Shown here: in pieces, positions 1 to 35,340 of the stretch | How the letters are laid out: every line of letters starts with the position of its first letter | Numbering within the stretch: the first letter of the stretch is position 1 | Origin: a virus | Length of the DNA: 38,770 bases | Reading direction: 5' to 3' (one strand) | IMG/VR virus record: IMGVR_UViG_3300010155_000022 | Span: 1-38,770 of that record | Position numbers and translations under genes: made by a program | The notes under the pieces: model-generated | What the model was told of the DNA's origin: nothing | Database searches by the model: none | What the model saw: the letters and a program-made list of their open reading frames with translations, nothing else

Positions 1-3000
1 AACTTGTATCTCCTAATATTTCCAAGTCATCTTTCATTACTTCTAAACCTGGATATTTAGAATATGCATCATCAAGTAAATAATTATAATTTCTAGGACC
101 TGAATAATTAATTATACCATTTTCAGCTTTAGGAAGTTCATCTCCATCATGCATTTCTTCTAGTATATATCCTCCTCTTTTATACTGTTCTACTTGTTTA
201 GGAGATAAGTCTAAAACAAATCCACCATCTTTTTTATTATCAAGCATGCTAGTTGCTACAACAGGTGCTGCTACAACAGGTGCAACTTTATTTAATGCTT
301 TAGCTAACTGTTTATATCTTGAAGGATCTGTAAAATCTAAAATTCTACTTGTTGATTGAACATTTCCAAACTCATCTAATTCACTACTGTACGCTGATTT
401 TTGAAAATAACCTTTTGGATTTTGTTGATTTATTTTTTGAGATTGTATTAATATATCTTCAGTAATTGGATCAAACCAATCTTTTATTAAACCTTGATCT
501 AATAAAGTTTGCTTAAATTCTTGAGCATATGATACAGGTTCTCCACTTGTTAGAGTATTTGATTTAATATCATTTGCCAGATAAGGAAAGTTTACATCCT
601 TAGTATTTTTATATTTATCAAAAAGCTGACCCTTTGTAAGACTTTGATTTCTTACAGGATCTAGTTTGCGAAGTTTTTCTACTAGTTTTTCACCTGTTTT
701 TTGTTTTTTTACAAAATAATTATAAGCACGAACTGTTTCATAATCCATTTCATTTCCTGCTATAAGATTTTTTGTAAAAGTAGGTGTTCCAACAGCTTCT
801 ATTAATTCTTTTTCTATAGGCATATCTCTACCTGCAGTACCTATATGCCCTGCTTCATGATGTATTACAGCAGGATTTTTTTTAGTTACATAATTAGGAT
901 TAAAACCTATAGTTGCATCTTTATTTTTAGGACCCAATGTTTTATTTATCTTATCCATATAGTAGTCACTCTCATGATATAAATCGTTAAATTCAGGAGA
1001 TTTCCTATGCCAAGCTGTTACTTCTTCAGTTGCTGCATAGTTTTTATTTTTAAATAAATTTTCAACTTCATCAATTCTAGCCTGAGCAGCAGCCTCAGAC
1101 ATTTCATCTATTTCTTTTACAGTTAGCTTGCCATCTTCATTAAGGGTTTTATTTATATAGGCTTTTTGTTCTTCTTTTAAAAGTTTACGACCTTTCTCAC
1201 TCTTCATTCTATCCAACTTAATTTTTATTTGCTCATCTACAATTTTAAACTTCTCTGGAGGTAATGCTAAATCTGTTTCTTGATTCATTATTCTACCATC
1301 AGCATCCATTTTAGATTTAGCTGGCTTTCTTTGCAATACTTGTATTTCTCCTGACTCAACTTGTTGTACTAATTTACTATTTGGATTATTTTTTAATCTT
1401 GCATTATAAACTTCAGGTGTTATATATTTTTGACCTTGTAAGTCAACCATATTACTCTTCATATTTTTATAATGTTGAACCTTCTTAAAATCTTTAACCA
1501 ATCCCAGATCCTCAGTAGTTTTAACTAAAGCTTTATTAATGTCAGCAATTGGATTAAATTTATCTACAGAAGCTACTTTTAGTTTTCTAGGAATCTTCTT
1601 AAGCTTTCCTGCAGCACCTATTATATCTTTAGCATATTTACTTCCAGTTTTTAGACCTTTTATTCCTCCTCCAATCCAAGGTAATGATCCAACTACATCA
1701 CCTGTTACTCCTAAACTATGTAGATCTACAAGATTTTCTCCTTCAAATTTACCATCACCTAACTTATAATCATAGGTTTCTTTAGCTAAGTTAAATGGTA
1801 AAGTCTGAATATCTTTAATTGTAGTACCTACATCTTTTGCTAATTGTAAAGGATCATCTTTTAGTCTATCATAAGTTCTACTTATACTTGGAATACCTGT
1901 AAGTTCATTAGCTATATTAGCATATTCACCTAAATAATTATAACCAGGATCATGTACATCTTTATAATATTCATCAGGACTACTAGCTCCAGCTAGTTTC
2001 CATTGAGGAATTGGATTGCCTTGTATATCTTGTCCACTTTCCATTTCCAATTGCTCTTGTTCCTTTCTATACTGAGTATCTTCAATAGCTTTTTCTTTTA
2101 TCTTTTTATTTTCATACTCTTCATCCTCTTTCTCTGTTCTACCAACATTAGCAAGATAGGTTTCTCTAACTCTTTTTTCAGCTTTTTTTCTTTCTTCTGG
2201 ATTTCCTCTTTCTGCCACATATTTATCATACTGATCTCCAGAAGGATCAAAGAAATAGTCAGCAATTTCTGGAATTTTTCTCATACCTGAAAGAGTACCC
2301 ATTTTAGGTATACCTAATTTCTTATTACCATATACTAAATCAAGAGGCATAGCTCCTTCTATATCTAAATAGTCATCAACCCTTTTTATATATTTAGTTC
2401 TATCTTTATGAGGATGCTTATGAGGTTCCCCACCTTCATGCATTTCTTCTAAAATATAACCACCTCTTACATATTCATCAACTTGAGTTTGATTTAAATC
2501 CATTTCAATTGATCCACCATTTTCTTTTAAACTTGATATAATCTTTTGAGTTGTTTCTATAGGATGAACCATAGCATTCCCCGCTGAAAAAGCACCCTCT
2601 ACCATGTCATCCCAAAAAGGAGCAACTGCTAAATCAGTAGCTGCAGTAATTCCAAGACCTGGTAGGGTACCCGGAGAAAACATTAAACCTTGCCAAAACC
2701 AATCTGCATTACCAGCACTTTGTGGTCCATATCTCTCATGCTGAGATATAAATTGAGGAAATCTTTGTCTTTGTTCTTTTTTCCATTGCTCTAAAGAGAC
2801 ACATTTTTGTTGTGTCTCACTCCAATTTAATCCTTTTTCTTTACATGCATTATAATTTCTACTTTGTACTTTTCCTGCATTATATTGATAACCCCCTCTA
2901 CCTTCATTTGCAGTAACATCAAAATATGTATCACTTATATCTTCATTCCAAGCTATTCTATCTATACTATTACCCATTGATTTACCATCTAATAAAATAT

Positions 3001-4600
3001 TAGAATCCTCATCAAATTCATAACCGGCCTCTCCAAAACTCTTTTTTAATTCATCTTTTCTTTTAGTAGTAGGATTAGCCTTATTCCAATTTAAAAATCT
3101 AAGTTCAGATTCAAGCTCTTCTTTTTTCTTTTTATAATCAGCATTAATATCTTCAATTTCTTTAGCATTATCTCCTATTGTAGTATTACCTGTCATACTT
3201 AACATTGATAGATATTTCTTTTTTGCTGCTTCTTTTTTTTCTTCTTTAGTATTACCCTTAGATATTTCAGTTATAGATAAAGTATTAATTTTTTTTAAGT
3301 GTGTATTACGTAAATTAATTAATTCTTGTTCTATTGTAGCTATCTTAGAATTTATTCCTAAAATGTTAGATTCTTCATTATTTATAACATTAACATTATC
3401 ATTAACACTAACATTATTTAGAGGTTCTGTATCTAATTGTTTATTTGATTCTTTTAATTTATCTTTTATTTCATCCTTAGAAACACCTTCTGCTTTTATC
3501 CAATTTTCAGTTCCCTTTTTTCTAGTAAAATAATCATCATCCTCTTTTAAATATTCCCAAGAATCACCATAAGGACTTACTATATTACCTTTAGGATATA
3601 GAATCTCACCAAATAATGCCATTTGTCCTTCATCAGAAAGTCTAAAATTATCATTAGAACTTCTATATACTGAATTTTGTGTTTCTTCTAGATCATCTTC
3701 TAAAGTATCTTCATCAATTTCAACTAATTCTTCAGTAGTTTCTTCTATATCTTCTTCACCATCTTCAGTATTTTCTTCTATATCTTCTGTTTCTATAAAC
3801 TTTTCAGCTACGATTGGGTTTTTATCAAGAGGTGTACCTGTCTTTCCTTTAACAGATTCACGTCCTAAAAGTTTATCTTTTGATTTTCCTTCTCCCGGAT
3901 CAGTTAAATTATAATTTTTTAAATAAGGTTGTGCTTTTCTTAACCTTTTAGCAAATTTTTCTTTAGAAGGATAATTACCAAATCCTGCATTAGCACTTGT
4001 TAATAAGAAACTTGCATCTTCTAGATTATCTATATTATTATAATCTAAGTAATCTTCAAATCTTTTTTTGTAACTAGAATTATTTTTTACAAGTCTAGGT
4101 AAGGTTTTATTTATTCTATTATAAATAAATAAAACTGCAGCATGAGCTTGTAACTCAGGATCTTCATCTAATAGTTCAGGATTATTTATTAAATCTACAC
4201 CTAGTTGTTTACCTAATTTTTTATAAGAACCTTTTCCTGTTAACTGATTTAAACCTCTTCCTCTATATGTCCATCCATCATTTGTATTCTTACCTCCATT
4301 ACCTAATCTATCTCCATAAATAAAATTAGCTAAGTCTTCTGGTTTATGTTCTAAGTTTGTAGCTAGTTCATTATAATTATATTTTCCTTGACCTTTTTTA
4401 ACAACCTTTCCTGTTTTTGAAAATTTACCCCATACTTCAGGTAACCTTTCTTTACTATAATTCATATTTTCAGGATGTCCATCAAACCCTCCTTCTGATA
4501 GTATTATACCTAATATAGCAGTTTTCATATAAGGATTTGTAATCCCATATTTATCCATATAAGTATCAAGTAGGCTCATTGCTTTTTTTTCAGTGATCAT
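1..4600 (-). CDS. Giant virion cargo/ejection protein with GH19 lysozyme domain and HEAGH motif (partial)
   Basis: The frame is open from the ATG at 4600 to the left edge, at least 1533 codons, with the stop outside the window. Residues about 20-250 look like a GH19 chitinase/lysozyme domain: LSEGGF then PENMNYS (candidate catalytic E36 and E44), YGDRLGNGG, and YRGRGLNQLTG at 112-122, as in phage GH19 endolysins. Residues about 260-300 are very acidic. Hydrophobic Gly-rich stretches occur near residue 650 and near residue 980. HEAGH at residues 1248-1252 (bases 845-859) fits the HExxH zinc metallopeptidase motif. A module of about 30 residues ending GGYILEEMH occurs twice (bases 2424-2519 and 143-232). 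The ATG overlaps the stop of the muzzle gene (ATGA). Known: crAss-like phages place giant internal cargo proteins here. Inferred: it is packaged in the virion and degrades peptidoglycan during entry. Protease activity is unproven. Confidence 0.85.
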   Translation of the reverse strand, partial: MITEKKAMSLLDTYMDKYGITNPYMKTAILGIILSEGGFDGHPENMNYSKERLPEVWGKFSKTGKVVKKGQGKYNYNELATNLEHKPEDLANFIYGDRLGNGGKNTNDGWTYRGRGLNQLTGKGSYKKLGKQLGVDLINNPELLDEDPELQAHAAVLFIYNRINKTLPRLVKNNSSYKKRFEDYLDYNNIDNLEDASFLLTSANAGFGNYPSKEKFAKRLRKAQPYLKNYNLTDPGEGKSKDKLLGRESVKGKTGTPLDKNPIVAEKFIETEDIEENTEDGEEDIEETTEELVEIDEDTLEDDLEETQNSVYRSSNDNFRLSDEGQMALFGEILYPKGNIVSPYGDSWEYLKEDDDYFTRKKGTENWIKAEGVSKDEIKDKLKESNKQLDTEPLNNVSVNDNVNVINNEESNILGINSKIATIEQELINLRNTHLKKINTLSITEISKGNTKEEKKEAAKKKYLSMLSMTGNTTIGDNAKEIEDINADYKKKKEELESELRFLNWNKANPTTKRKDELKKSFGEAGYEFDEDSNILLDGKSMGNSIDRIAWNEDISDTYFDVTANEGRGGYQYNAGKVQSRNYNACKEKGLNWSETQQKCVSLEQWKKEQRQRFPQFISQHERYGPQSAGNADWFWQGLMFSPGTLPGLGITAATDLAVAPFWDDMVEGAFSAGNAMVHPIETTQKIISSLKENGGSIEMDLNQTQVDEYVRGGYILEEMHEGGEPHKHPHKDRTKYIKRVDDYLDIEGAMPLDLVYGNKKLGIPKMGTLSGMRKIPEIADYFFDPSGDQYDKYVAERGNPEERKKAEKRVRETYLANVGRTEKEDEEYENKKIKEKAIEDTQYRKEQEQLEMESGQDIQGNPIPQWKLAGASSPDEYYKDVHDPGYNYLGEYANIANELTGIPSISRTYDRLKDDPLQLAKDVGTTIKDIQTLPFNLAKETYDYKLGDGKFEGENLVDLHSLGVTGDVVGSLPWIGGGIKGLKTGSKYAKDIIGAAGKLKKIPRKLKVASVDKFNPIADINKALVKTTEDLGLVKDFKKVQHYKNMKSNMVDLQGQKYITPEVYNARLKNNPNSKLVQQVESGEIQVLQRKPAKSKMDADGRIMNQETDLALPPEKFKIVDEQIKIKLDRMKSEKGRKLLKEEQKAYINKTLNEDGKLTVKEIDEMSEAAAQARIDEVENLFKNKNYAATEEVTAWHRKSPEFNDLYHESDYYMDKINKTLGPKNKDATIGFNPNYVTKKNPAVIHHEAGHIGTAGRDMPIEKELIEAVGTPTFTKNLIAGNEMDYETVRAYNYFVKKQKTGEKLVEKLRKLDPVRNQSLTKGQLFDKYKNTKDVNFPYLANDIKSNTLTSGEPVSYAQEFKQTLLDQGLIKDWFDPITEDILIQSQKINQQNPKGYFQKSAYSSELDEFGNVQSTSRILDFTDPSRYKQLAKALNKVAPVVAAPVVATSMLDNKKDGGFVLDLSPKQVEQYKRGGYILEEMHDGDELPKAENGIINYSGPRNYNYLLDDAYSKYPGLEVMKDDLEILGDTS

Positions 4601-7600
4601 CTTTGAGAAAATTGATTTTTAGTATTAAGTATTTTAAATACCATATTAGTATTTTGAGAATTCTTCTTAATTAATTTTACAAAATTAGTATAGTGTCTGA
4701 ATTTTTTTCTTTGTAATTCTGGTTTATTATAATCTAAACTAGACTGATTTAAATCTTGCACATATCCATTAGCTTTTGTACTCCAAATTTGATTTTCAGG
4801 ATAATTACCAAGTAATCTAGTTGTATTTGGAATAAGTTGTCCATTTGGAGGATAACCTGCTCCATCAGGAAATTCTCCTCTATCTTTAGTTATATCCCAA
4901 AATTGATTAAATCTATATTTATGTTCTACTTTAGATACTAAAATATCTATAGAATTTGTATTTATTTTAGGATATTCTTGAGCTAATACAACATTATTTT
5001 TTGGAAAAATATTTAAATTTAAATACCCTGAAATTTGCCCAGAATTATAAATTATAGCTTGATCAAAATTATAATCTAAAACATGAAATTGATCTACACA
5101 AAAAATAGTATCTCTTCTATAGCACTCTAAAAAATATTCTATACTTCTAACTGTTGTTACAGTTTGACCAGTTGGAAAAGGAACACCTATTTCAAAAGGA
5201 TATTGAGCATTGTAAAAATTACAATAATTATTACATCCAGCATTATGTTTCCATATACCACCTAATTTAGTAGTATAATGTTTATTTCTACCAGATAAAT
5301 ATAAATTAGGATGCCAGTCATGAAATGATACCCATTGCTTTGTTTTAGGATCAAAACTAACAGTCCATGAAGCATCTTCAAAAATTCTATCATCTCCAAG
5401 TTTTACAGTAATTTTATTTCTACCAGTTGGATCACTATCCAATACTACTGAAAAATTATCCTCTTCTAAATATGTAACTTTATCTTTAAATTCTGGTTTT
5501 AGCATATAATCTTTTTTAGAAAAATATATAATACTATTACCATTATCATAACCTGCTGAACATCCTATACCTGCAACAGGATTATCTATATAAGTAAAGT
5601 TAGGAAAATCTTCTATAAGTTTATATGGTAAAAATTCTTCAAACCACCATTTCATATTAATAGAAGAAAGTTCTTGAAGTGAGTCTCCAAAACTAAATAT
5701 CTTACCTTGTTGTTGACTAATGAAATATAATCCTGCGGGTGATGAAACTACTCCTAACCTATCTTGTGAAGACCCATATTCATATTTAGCATCAGCAGCT
5801 GTTACATTTCTAGGAGTAGCTGAAAATAATAAACCATCTCCTATTGTTGCAGCTACACCTAAATAATCTTCTCTTTGATCTACACCAGCATACATTAAAG
5901 GACTTGCATTTTCAAAGGTTATAAACATTCCTGTTTTTCCATAGCTTTTTATAGAATTTACATTATTTTTAAATACAACTTTATTTAATGGTAAAAATGT
6001 TCTCCAAGATTCAACAATACTTTCTTGAGTTTCAGGTAATGAATAATTAATTACATTAGGAGATGATGTATAACATAATCGTGCTACAGTTGGATCATAA
6101 TCTCTAGACTGTAAAGCTCCAAAATTATAAAGTTGATTTATAAAAAATTGAGAAATACTTAAAGAATAATCATAATTATAATAATTACCTGCTTTAAGTA
6201 TTTCAGGATTAGTACTAAATAATGATGGAAGATCTGTATATCTAAACTTATCATAATGATATTGTCTTTCAAAATCACCCCTTACTCTAAAATCTACTAT
6301 AACATCACTTTCTACAAAGAAATCTCTAATACCACATGCAGCTAAATAAAAATAAGAATTTTTAGGAGTTATTACTCCTGGATAATCTGTAGTATTATTA
6401 ATAGACCTATCATAATTCTTATTATCTAAACTATAATAAGCACTTGGTAATAAACCAGTTCCTTGATTAAGTCCTACAAGTGAAGTAATTAAATTGTTAA
6501 TGTTAATTTCACTTATATCCCAAGGTTCACTATTCGCCCAAAATTTTGGAAATGGTACTGAAGGATATAAAAAATAGTTCCACTGTTCACCTCTAGGTTC
6601 TTTATATAACCAATGTGTAAAGAAAGGCATTATATTCTTTTCTGTAAATCTATTTATATAAGTATCTCCTCCAAAAAATACAGAAGTTTCTTGAATTTTC
6701 TTTTGAGTTACAATAGGACAACCTAGAGAATTACCAGTACTTTGTCCTAATGTAGCTAAGTCAATTTTTTGTTCACAGGGACTAGCAACAATTTGTGCTA
6801 CAGTATTTAACTGACCATATTGATTTCTTATACTAAATTTTAAACCACCATAATGACTAGCTATAGGATTAGTAAAAGGTTTTTTTTTGCCTTCAGGTGT
6901 ATGATCCACATCAAAAGTTGATATAGTTGATGCTGTATCTAAAGTCATTAAAGATTGATCATAAGTATCTCCAATTGCATTAGTAATAAAATCAGGTCCT
7001 GTTTGTATACCATTAGGAGTCTCAACTCTTATAACAGCTTTGTGAGGTCTATTAAGATTATTTATTCTATAACTTACCGGAGTTCCTAAAGTATTCTGAT
7101 ACTCAGGAAAATCTTGAATATCACTAAACATATAAATACCATCCTCAATTGAAAATCTATTTATAGGTACAGAAGATGGTTTAAAATTTGTATATTCACC
7201 ATAACCTATTAACTCTAATGCATATTGTCTAAATGATGCTATTGATTTTAATAAATCTACAGTAATATCAACACCTTCTAAAAAATTAAATAATATTTCA
7301 CCAAAACTGGTACTAAGTCCTTGTATTAATTGAGGAAGTACATCTTTACTTGTATAGTTTCTGCTTAAAGTAGGAAGAGTTAAATAGTGACCTTTATCAT
7401 AAACTTTTTTATTTATTTCACTCATATTTTCATCAAAAGATGGCCCACTTAAACCAGGAAGTATACCAGAAAGTATATTTTGAAAAGCCTTCCAGTCTTT
7501 TATATCATCATCTACAGTATTTGGATCTATATTAGCATTATCTAAATCAGTTTTATCATCTTCATTACCTAATAAATTAGAATCTGTTTCTATACTTGTA

Positions 7601-10029
7601 TCTATATTAGCAGCTGGAACATTGTTTAGTGTTGTACCTCCTACACCAACACCACCTACATCAGCAATTTCCCATTGATAAGCAGGTTTGTTATTCTTAT
7701 CTCCACCTGTTATATCTGGAATATATTGCGGTTCCCATTTACCTGCAGGATAATTAACTTTTATATCTCCTGCCTGTTTAAATATTGTATGTACAATACC
7801 TCCAATAGCTCCAACTAATACTATCATATCTGAAAGTAATTGAAATTCTGGATGATTAGGTGCTTCTATAAACTGTTGTTTTGCATTTCCTTCTAAATGA
7901 CCATATACTTTTAATTCAGACATTTGTAAATAAGGTGTTCTAAATGAAGTATCAGGAGAATGAAAGCTTAACATACTTCTAGGAATATCCTGATTTTGAA
8001 ATGGAGGTATAGGATCATTTTCAAAAACAGGTTGTATACCAGCTCTACTTAATATATAAGGATCATTAAAATCATTATTATAATCTCCAGCACCAGAAGT
8101 ATTTTGATTTGGTCTAATTGTATTAAATGGATAGTTTCCATAAAGCCCCACTTTAGTACTATTTGAAGGTTCACCTTGTAATGTATAGTCTCTAAAATTA
8201 TTTAACATACCTTTAGCTACTATAGATTTATTACCAGCTCTAGAACCTCTAAGAATTTCATAACCTACAATTCCTTCTATATCATTTCCATCATTATCTT
8301 TTGGTAAAACAATATCTTTAAATCTTACACCCATTAATCTTATATGAAAACTACCATTGGAATGTTTATCAAAATGATAAACACTGGGATGTAATCCATT
8401 TTCAGGAAATCTATGATGTCTTATATTTTTACCACATAAATCATTTGTAAGATCAGTTCCTACTCTAGTCCAACAATGCTCACTTGAATTCCAAATATTA
8501 GGTCTATCTGATGGATATTTTTCTGTAGATTGCCAATAACCCATATCACCATAAGCAATTATTTTACCACCATCACCATTATCTAATGCAGGAGATTGAG
8601 GAATTACGGTTGCAGTATTTATTGTTTCAAAAAGTTGATTTTCTCCAGGAAAAGAATTTGAATTATTAAAAGTTTGTCCAGCTTCTAATATCCCATTATA
8701 TGCAATAGGTGGTCTTCCTGGAATATGATATGATGCTGATTTATCTCCAGTATCATAAACCCATCTTATAAAAAAGGCATAAACCTCATCTCTAAGATAT
8801 CCTGCATTCTTACCTCCATTTACATAATATCTTTCTGAATATTCTATAGATACCCATTCAGATCTAATTAAATTTGCTAAAGGTTGATAATTAAAATCAA
8901 ATCTACTTTTAGGTCCAACTTTAAGTAAATACCTATTAGCCTCTACTAATTGTTCTGATGTTTCTATTGCTGGATTAGATTTAAAAATAGTAGTAGGACT
9001 TGTATTTTCTAAAGTATCTGGTATTTGATCTATAATTATTTTTTTAGTATCTATACTATAGTATCCTAAAACTTTATAATTAGCAACGCTTTTATTTATA
9101 TAAACAATGCATAATTGATACTGATCAAAATGATCTGAATCTAAATCTTTTATAGTAATTTCTAATGATCCTTTACCATCTACTTCATTAAATACAGGTT
9201 GTATGTAAGATAAAGAAAAATAATTAGTTACACTTTGATTATTAATTGTATAAGTTAATCCTACAGTATAGGATCCATTTAATATCAAACCTTGTTGAGG
9301 TCCAATATTTATATCAATACAAGGTGTCTTAACTAAACTAGCCAATCTAGTTTCTTCACAGTCTAAAGAGTTTAGATTAGTGCATATAATACAATCATTA
9401 ACTGTATCACATTCTTCATTCCATTTTACACCAGGCCAAAGAAAATCAATAGTTGTATTATTAGAATAATAATTAATTGTTGAAGTTCCATCTAAACCAC
9501 CTAACCAAGAATAATCTTCTGTAGGCCATAATTTAGGATCTCCTATATTAAGATATCTATCTGGATTAATTCCATCTGCCCAATATATTTGCCAAGAACA
9601 ATCCCCCTTTTCTCTAGAGGCTCCACTAATTAAATGAAATTTACTAAACTTTAAACATTTATCTCTTACTATAGGTCTGTATCTACAAAAATCTTCTTCA
9701 AATAATCCTATTTCAGATGTAAGAACAGTATTAGTATTAGAGGCATCATATATAACTGAAAATACTACCCACTTACTTTCAAATAATGGAACAGCTCCTA
9801 CTATAACAATTTTATGCTTTACTATAAGATCTGCACCAATTTTACCACATAATCTATTAGATTCTTCATTTGATAAAGTTCCTATCTCACCTTCTCTAGT
9901 ATTATTTACAGCATTTCTAGCATAATTCCACATCCCATCTTGGATAAAAGAAGGATCCATATCACGACTTAAGCCTTTAACAAAAGTTCTTGATTGATTT
10001 AAATTACTATTGGATTGTTGTTTTGCCAT
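4597..10029 (-). CDS. Muzzle / tail stabilisation protein, crAss-like
   Basis: 1810 residues. The N-terminus (about 15-65: FVKGLSRDMDPSFIQDGMW, then NAVNNTREGEIGTLSNE) is the signature I associate with the crAss-like stabilisation protein, shown in the phiCrAss001 virion to form the muzzle at the tail end (recalled as gp44). The rest is rich in Asn, Tyr and Gly and looks beta-rich, with no membrane segment or enzyme motif seen. Position agrees: it follows two ring-type proteins and precedes the giant cargo gene by an ATGA overlap, the order recalled for phiCrAss001 gp43-gp44-gp45. The start lies 2 bases after the previous stop, so translation is probably coupled. It is long, and the C-terminal half could hold receptor- or fibre-contacting domains that I cannot name. 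Confidence 0.8.
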   Translation of the reverse strand: MAKQQSNSNLNQSRTFVKGLSRDMDPSFIQDGMWNYARNAVNNTREGEIGTLSNEESNRLCGKIGADLIVKHKIVIVGAVPLFESKWVVFSVIYDASNTNTVLTSEIGLFEEDFCRYRPIVRDKCLKFSKFHLISGASREKGDCSWQIYWADGINPDRYLNIGDPKLWPTEDYSWLGGLDGTSTINYYSNNTTIDFLWPGVKWNEECDTVNDCIICTNLNSLDCEETRLASLVKTPCIDINIGPQQGLILNGSYTVGLTYTINNQSVTNYFSLSYIQPVFNEVDGKGSLEITIKDLDSDHFDQYQLCIVYINKSVANYKVLGYYSIDTKKIIIDQIPDTLENTSPTTIFKSNPAIETSEQLVEANRYLLKVGPKSRFDFNYQPLANLIRSEWVSIEYSERYYVNGGKNAGYLRDEVYAFFIRWVYDTGDKSASYHIPGRPPIAYNGILEAGQTFNNSNSFPGENQLFETINTATVIPQSPALDNGDGGKIIAYGDMGYWQSTEKYPSDRPNIWNSSEHCWTRVGTDLTNDLCGKNIRHHRFPENGLHPSVYHFDKHSNGSFHIRLMGVRFKDIVLPKDNDGNDIEGIVGYEILRGSRAGNKSIVAKGMLNNFRDYTLQGEPSNSTKVGLYGNYPFNTIRPNQNTSGAGDYNNDFNDPYILSRAGIQPVFENDPIPPFQNQDIPRSMLSFHSPDTSFRTPYLQMSELKVYGHLEGNAKQQFIEAPNHPEFQLLSDMIVLVGAIGGIVHTIFKQAGDIKVNYPAGKWEPQYIPDITGGDKNNKPAYQWEIADVGGVGVGGTTLNNVPAANIDTSIETDSNLLGNEDDKTDLDNANIDPNTVDDDIKDWKAFQNILSGILPGLSGPSFDENMSEINKKVYDKGHYLTLPTLSRNYTSKDVLPQLIQGLSTSFGEILFNFLEGVDITVDLLKSIASFRQYALELIGYGEYTNFKPSSVPINRFSIEDGIYMFSDIQDFPEYQNTLGTPVSYRINNLNRPHKAVIRVETPNGIQTGPDFITNAIGDTYDQSLMTLDTASTISTFDVDHTPEGKKKPFTNPIASHYGGLKFSIRNQYGQLNTVAQIVASPCEQKIDLATLGQSTGNSLGCPIVTQKKIQETSVFFGGDTYINRFTEKNIMPFFTHWLYKEPRGEQWNYFLYPSVPFPKFWANSEPWDISEININNLITSLVGLNQGTGLLPSAYYSLDNKNYDRSINNTTDYPGVITPKNSYFYLAACGIRDFFVESDVIVDFRVRGDFERQYHYDKFRYTDLPSLFSTNPEILKAGNYYNYDYSLSISQFFINQLYNFGALQSRDYDPTVARLCYTSSPNVINYSLPETQESIVESWRTFLPLNKVVFKNNVNSIKSYGKTGMFITFENASPLMYAGVDQREDYLGVAATIGDGLLFSATPRNVTAADAKYEYGSSQDRLGVVSSPAGLYFISQQQGKIFSFGDSLQELSSINMKWWFEEFLPYKLIEDFPNFTYIDNPVAGIGCSAGYDNGNSIIYFSKKDYMLKPEFKDKVTYLEEDNFSVVLDSDPTGRNKITVKLGDDRIFEDASWTVSFDPKTKQWVSFHDWHPNLYLSGRNKHYTTKLGGIWKHNAGCNNYCNFYNAQYPFEIGVPFPTGQTVTTVRSIEYFLECYRRDTIFCVDQFHVLDYNFDQAIIYNSGQISGYLNLNIFPKNNVVLAQEYPKINTNSIDILVSKVEHKYRFNQFWDITKDRGEFPDGAGYPPNGQLIPNTTRLLGNYPENQIWSTKANGYVQDLNQSSLDYNKPELQRKKFRHYTNFVKLIKKNSQNTNMVFKILNTKNQFSQR

Positions 10030-34496: not shown

Positions 34497-34655
34497 CTAC
34501 CTGTTTTTGATAGTGTAATTAAGTATTGTAAATAAATAAAATTTTCTTGATATATCTACTTCAATACAAAGAATATCTAAAAATGATATTCTGAATCTTA
34601 TCATTATTTTATCCCATTGCTTATTGGGAGCCTTCCAACCATTTCTAAACTTCAT
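34497..34655 (-). CDS. Small ORF after endolysin (52 aa)
   Basis: 52 codons from the ATG at 34655, overlapping the endolysin end by 11 bases. Sequence features: KFRNGWKAPNKQWDKI, then a hydrophobic region FRISFLDILCIEVDISRK and FYLFTILNYT. The overlap, the fit up to the terminator and the alternation of charged and hydrophobic residues favour a real gene, possibly membrane-associated. Without it the 140 bases before the terminator would be empty. No known motif. Confidence 0.55.
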   Translation of the reverse strand: MKFRNGWKAPNKQWDKIMIRFRISFLDILCIEVDISRKFYLFTILNYTIKNR

Positions 34656-35340
34656 TTTCTTCTTCTATTTCTTGAATCATTTGAAAATGGATCTTAGCTA
34701 TTCTATTCCTACCTTCTTCTGATAAATGATACTTATGACAGTTATCATAGTTAGTCATAAAGAAGTTCTCTGATAATATAGCTGGCATAGATGTATGTTT
34801 TATTACATAAAAATTAGCTTCTTTATCAGGATCTCCATCTCTTGTATCTCTTCTCATCTTTTCTCCTTTAAACTCTGCTGCTGCTTTTTCATATAATACT
34901 GTAGCAATCTTATCTGATTTAGTTACACCTGGAGTAGTATATACAGACCATCCATTAGCAGATTCTTTATTAAAGCCGTTAGCATGTATACTAATGTATA
35001 TACACTTCTTATCTGAGGCTTTAGCTATTTTATTTGCTGATCTTACTCTAGATCCAAGACTTACATCTTCCTGTGTATCAACTATATTTACACATTCTAT
35101 TCCATTATCATTACATAGTTTAACTAATCTTTTTACTATAGCTCTATTAAACTCTCCTTCAAATAGTTGCTTTCCATCATTCCATTTAGGAGATCTTTTA
35201 CCTGATGTTTGATATACACCATTTATTATACCTCCATGACCATTGTCAAATAACCATATATAATTAGATTCTTTTTTATTTTCTTGGGGATTTGGATCAA
35301 AACTAGTATTACAATTTGGACATGTTACACTTTTACTCAT
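34645..35340 (-). CDS. Endolysin: N-acetylmuramoyl-L-alanine amidase (Amidase_3)
   Basis: 231 residues. The zinc amidase motifs are clear: FDNGHGG with H35, EGEFNRAI with E63, YISIHANG with H119, and ILSENFF with catalytic E191. These match the LytC/AmiC type that cuts the bond between muramic acid and the stem peptide. A short N-terminal tag has one CPNC pair (C7, C10), half of a zinc ribbon; it may pair in a dimer. No signal peptide is visible, so export would need the neighbouring holin. It overlaps the holin candidate by 4 bases and is followed by a 52-residue ORF and a terminator. Confidence 0.9.
   Translation of the reverse strand: MSKSVTCPNCNTSFDPNPQENKKESNYIWLFDNGHGGIINGVYQTSGKRSPKWNDGKQLFEGEFNRAIVKRLVKLCNDNGIECVNIVDTQEDVSLGSRVRSANKIAKASDKKCIYISIHANGFNKESANGWSVYTTPGVTKSDKIATVLYEKAAAEFKGEKMRRDTRDGDPDKEANFYVIKHTSMPAILSENFFMTNYDNCHKYHLSEEGRNRIAKIHFQMIQEIEEENEV

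Follow-up and report, generated by a model that had tools for sequence, protein, structure and literature searches.

Genomic context of the post-muzzle gene

The sequence analysed is a 38,770-base virus record (hereafter the window), in which Pfam models identified crassvirus major capsid and muzzle proteins; all features given here by window coordinates lie on the complementary strand. Directly after the muzzle gene (4597-10029; PF25731 crAss_MUZ, 3.2e-27), and starting inside its stop codon through a 4-nt stop/start overlap, a frame reads from 4600 down to 2 and encodes the post-muzzle cargo/ejection protein examined here, P0001. It comprises at least 1533 codons and has no stop codon because the 38,770-base record ends there, leaving the 3' end missing. 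Its length, its position right after the muzzle gene and its motifs are as given in the initial annotation. P0001 occupies the slot of the crassvirus cargo protein C1 and is not filed as C1 itself: crAss_CARG1 was not found in its at least 1533 codons or in its close clade, an absence that is not final for P0001 because of the missing 3' end.

Two domains were found in the chain, a GH19 domain and a metallopeptidase-like domain. The most hydrophobic stretch (residues 1435-1453; 242-298) has a Kyte-Doolittle mean of 1.44 and is a possible membrane segment. No relative of residues 200-1533 was detected in viral contigs. Weak Pfam matches to Tox-REase-3 and Tox-HNH-HHH fell below cut-off and were dropped.

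The N-terminal GH19 domain

The extreme N-terminus of P0001 carries a GH19 (lysozyme/chitinase-like) domain (residues 10-226; 3923-4573), matched by PF00182 (30.2 bits; cut-off 25.5), by PHROG 181 endolysin over residues 11-166 (2.2e-30) and by GH19 enzymes in the PDB (4e-23 for 8p8e, to 1e-17). In an alignment with the relatives L015 and L016, the catalytic glutamate E36 (4493-4495) shares a column with the Glu of the canonical KESGF of L016, and the second, E44 (4469-4471), is invariant; next to E36, P0001 and L015 are one residue shorter, reading SEGG for ESGG. The GH19 signature is intact in sequence, with both catalytic glutamates present as originally proposed, and the domain would be expected to cleave peptidoglycan.

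A divergent metallopeptidase-like domain

A metallopeptidase-like domain of ~210 residues was delimited by family alignment and scores at residues 1187-1400 (401-1042). It contains the HEAGH motif noted initially (residues 1248-1252; 845-859), which is invariant in 10 aligned sequences, with H1248 and H1252 as candidate zinc ligands and E1249 as candidate general base. The third ligand is likely to be E1354 of SGEPVSY (539-541), a candidate whose column matches in at least 9 of 10 sequences and is invariant (9/9) in another alignment. Conservation among the highly divergent copies, including that of P0001, is strongest at the two histidines, the glutamate between them and the downstream Glu; the P0001 domain is 12-19% identical to its relatives.

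Against a family model built without P0001, its domain scores 22 bits, a value reached by none of 1000 shuffles that preserved HEAGH. Only domain-level scores were used for P0001 membership, because six extra N-terminal residues push the chain score below 0 through a 50-bit bias term; an early model built on a poor alignment had given 1.9 bits, and the better alignment gave 22. Further downstream, at the expected place, the segment SGEPVSYAQEF...LDQGLIKDWFDPIT matches a motif of the relatives L006 and L013 (hhalign E 1e-3). No alignment was obtained when P0001 was compared by hhalign as a single sequence with the metagenomic HExxH family (A7). The assignment of P0001 to the HExxH family, which we regard as a sequence-level prediction, draws on the domain-level HMM score and the matching motif order.

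The metzincin pattern HExxHxxGxxH is absent from P0001, which reads HEAGHIGTAGR, and searches of Pfam and NCBIfam gave no peptidase family match. AlphaFold placed HExxH on a helix in a low-confidence model from a 10-row alignment (pLDDT 45.5); from a 5-row alignment (the L010 model, pLDDT 58.3) the motif was not on a helix, and confidence around it was low. Foldseek searches with the HExxH models found nothing in the PDB and gave weak matches among viral models to structural proteins of phi14:2 and phi4:1. For the P0001 domain we infer zinc binding, proteolysis and the substrate proposed below.

Distribution of the HExxH domain among relatives

Among 37 post-muzzle gene-1 products, HExxH was observed 12 times against 0.24 expected from shuffles, compared with 1 against 1.5 in upstream structural genes; the set includes close relatives (L055/L056, L001/L010), so that these 12 represent about 8 independent cases. 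The occurrence of HExxH in the post-muzzle slot is no accident, and the domain is common to post-muzzle proteins of several crass-like lineages. Copies share a motif order (SP.Y...S, HExxH, a downstream [PSG]xE and a GI/NI..IT segment), often with a GG module junction right after, the domain stopping just before it (MAKNGG).

Profile comparison shows the tandem HExxH domains of Cellulophaga phage proteins (A8) to be homologous to the metagenomic family A7 (hhalign 98.1%, E 1.1e-13). A remote similarity also links A7 to the metallopeptidase region of the N4 virion RNA polymerase (E 8.4e-5, reached in 0/200 shuffles), and a control region of N4 gp50 gave nothing against A7. The only match to a curated peptidase family was that of PHROG 87 'metallo-protease' to the L006 copy (1.6e-5), and Pfam MPTase-PolyVal (PF18818) stayed below cut-off in nine related records. 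The initial reading of HEAGH as part of a zinc protease is supported at the level of the family, through the conserved HExxH, the downstream Glu and the remote N4 similarity, and finds no curated peptidase match in P0001 itself. The relative L009 carries a degenerate HELTN copy in place of HExxH, so not every copy of the domain is necessarily catalytic.

Seven HExxH domains, once aligned, proved too divergent for use in scanning. Single-domain queries added few loci, and none came from genome contigs; a tblastn search of phage records with the P0001 and L010 domains returned nothing. Separately, HExxH motifs were observed in giant RNA-polymerase-associated or neighbouring proteins (L022:16120-23142, crAss001 gp47; L019:29470-42672; L021:36813-44558), which read HEAFH, HEVIH and HELAH/HEFMH and have no Pfam peptidase above cut-off. 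L021 is the Leptolyngbya phage Lbo-JY46, recorded on a cyanobacterium, and its muzzle-like protein is 25% identical to the muzzle of the window over 84% of the latter.

Wall-related domains, possible effectors and annotated virion detection in the post-muzzle slot

A variety of wall-related domains is found in the post-muzzle proteins of relatives: DUF2272 with Phage_lysozyme (L001, L010), LysM with DUF2272 (L002), Phage_lysozyme2 (L005, phi17:2, csAssE-Sib), Phage_lysozyme (L007), PG_binding_1 (L011), GH19 (L015) and Glucosaminidase (L028). DUF2272 is weak evidence for wall activity because it is uncharacterised in Pfam, and many relatives have no wall-active domain in this protein. The wall enzyme is N-terminal in L015, L028 and phi17:2, as in P0001, and not N-terminal in L005, L007 and csAssE-Sib. 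In L015, GH19 and crAss_CARG1 share a single post-muzzle frame, which ties GH19 to ejected cargo.

In Cellulophaga phage phi14:2, classified in Crassvirales, gp081 lies right after the muzzle and combines CARG1 with two tandem HExxH domains; phi17:2 gp42 combines Phage_lysozyme2 with two such domains and is 98.6% identical to phi4:1 gp041. The GenBank records of phi4:1 and phi14:2 label gp041 and gp081, respectively, each encoded next after the muzzle, as 'structural protein, experimental MS/MS'. The sequence of P0001 and these relatives from its slot, with their MS/MS annotation, give good support to the virion-carried, wall-opening role first suggested for it.

Other modules occur in the slot as well. 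One post-muzzle protein (L036:12377-15928) has an ADP-ribosyltransferase exoenzyme domain (28 bits; cut-off 23.4) and may be an injected effector. SET-domain matches lie above cut-off in L009:15382-20931 and just below it in L003:15303-18041. In the post-muzzle genes of L055, L058 and L064, close relatives have the same modules arranged differently, among them a transglycosylase-like 'QESGLGKTDANLGH' segment without a Pfam match.

Proposed function and alternative explanations

Few viruses of the human gut are more abundant than crassviruses, yet, to our knowledge, there is little information on how they get through the cell wall or on the function of the proteins they eject. We consider it probable that this crass-like phage encodes, in the C1 slot, a multi-enzyme ('polyvalent') virion cargo or ejection protein, P0001, which leaves N-terminus first, cuts peptidoglycan through GH19 and deploys its metallopeptidase-like domain after ejection. 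The chain would be packed in the capsid or portal and in the tail, and would exit through the tail with the GH19 domain ahead, an order suggested by the published model of phi-crAss001 C1 (gp45), which is held partly in the tail and partly at the portal and for which N-terminus-first exit has been proposed (PMC10172136). GH19 would then cut peptidoglycan as the envelope is breached. With its HExxH and downstream Glu, the metallopeptidase-like domain would subsequently cut the long chain between modules, most likely, or alternatively a host protein; processing of itself or of a host target, as initially suggested, is a putative role. Injection of P0001 is suggested by its gene slot and its relatives, and storage and GH19-first wall opening appear better supported than the metallopeptidase cleavage step.

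That GH19 is instead the lysis endolysin, acting in release from within and merely fused to a structural protein, is suggested by the endolysin annotation of the closest PHROG and of many phage matches. We judge this unlikely, because the domain is fused to a chain of >1500 aa in the cargo slot, where comparable fusions are annotated as virion-detected, and because the window contains a separate Amidase_3 gene (34645-35340; PF01520, 7.4e-23) that adjoins small membrane and spanin-like frames and is more likely to provide the lysis enzyme of this phage. Equally improbable is a chance HEAGH unrelated to the HExxH domain of the relatives: the failed single-sequence alignment with A7 and the 12-19% identity would fit it, yet the shuffles do not reach the real score and the L006/L013-like segment lies correctly downstream.

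Somewhat less doubtful, though still not favoured, is a structural or packaging module in which catalysis was lost or never present and zinc-like residues are kept for folding. The HELTN copy of L009 and the low-confidence models around HExxH are consistent with such a module, as is the report that the N4 metallopeptidase region is needed for encapsidation and that the protein is packaged unprocessed (PMC5512222); the conservation of the H, E, H and downstream Glu across very divergent copies argues against it. The alternative to which we give most room is an injected effector protease whose targets are host proteins and not the chain itself. Possible effectors do seem to travel in the slot, to judge from the ADP-ribosyltransferase of L036, but no substrate is known, and the frequent GG junction at the end of the domain is as compatible with self-processing as with a hinge. 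Self-processing after ejection remains our preferred role for the domain.

Relation to known systems

Iyer et al. (2017) have already put forward the idea of injected multi-enzyme phage proteins that combine wall hydrolases with metallopeptidases, proposed that such domains act in self-processing of polyvalent proteins, and assigned the N4 virion RNA polymerase region to zincin-like metallopeptidases (PMC5512222). Like those proteins, P0001 would be a long single injected chain with a peptidoglycan-attacking domain and a putative zincin-like metallopeptidase, and some of them also carry ADP-ribosyltransferase domains, as the L036 protein does. Unlike them, P0001 takes the cargo position that follows the muzzle in crassviruses, and its wall enzyme is GH19; 'crAss' has 0 occurrences in PMC5512222. 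P0001 shares its position after the muzzle with C1 (phi-crAss001 gp45, crAss_CARG1), whose CARG1 occurs with GH19 in L015 and with HExxH domains in phi14:2 gp081. It differs from C1 in having no detectable CARG1 in a chain with its 3' end missing, and from gp45 in that the latter has neither a wall-enzyme match nor HExxH.

The Cellulophaga proteins (phi4:1 gp041, phi17:2 gp042, phi14:2 gp081) resemble P0001 in their post-muzzle position and HExxH domains, phi17:2 also having an N-terminal wall lysozyme, but are shorter (593-739 aa), with two tandem HExxH domains and another N-terminal module. N4 gp50 is likewise a giant protein with an HExxH domain, ejected and of remote profile similarity, but comes from a different phage group (Schitoviridae), and P0001 gave no match to an RNA polymerase part. 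A term search of a few openly available crassvirus papers found no wall-enzyme or peptidase domains described in cargo proteins. What appears to be new is the occurrence of a polyvalent-type protein at the C1 position of crassviruses, where the wall hydrolases are swapped and the domain family is an unlisted one. If this reading holds, the wall enzyme injected by a crass-like phage could be read from a single gene slot, and the cultured Cellulophaga phages would make the metallopeptidase hypothesis directly testable.

Aromatic-x-x-Gly-Gly motifs and repeats

P0001 contains two copies of a repeat, the first reading GGxIxxDLxxxQVxxYxRGGYILEE (residues 693-730; 2411-2524) and the second GG...YKRGGYILEE (residues 1457-1488; 137-232). 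Motifs of the form aromatic-x-x-Gly-Gly, such as MYANGG, SFADGG, KYPAGG and YKRGGYILEE, recur in post-muzzle genes (L001-L064 and P0001). In the 37 post-muzzle products 163 of them were counted where shuffles predict 25; the corresponding observed and expected figures are 117 and 25 for later genes and 53 and 64 for upstream genes. They tend to fall outside the mapped domains, 101 doing so compared with 10 that lie within one. One speculative scheme, which we think rather improbable, is that crassvirus post-muzzle genes encode modular ejection polyproteins with swappable wall hydrolases and effectors, in which these motifs would lie between the modules as sites of docking or cleavage, and a metallopeptidase within the chain would divide it into its parts during infection. 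Similar motifs are present in phi-crAss001 gp45.
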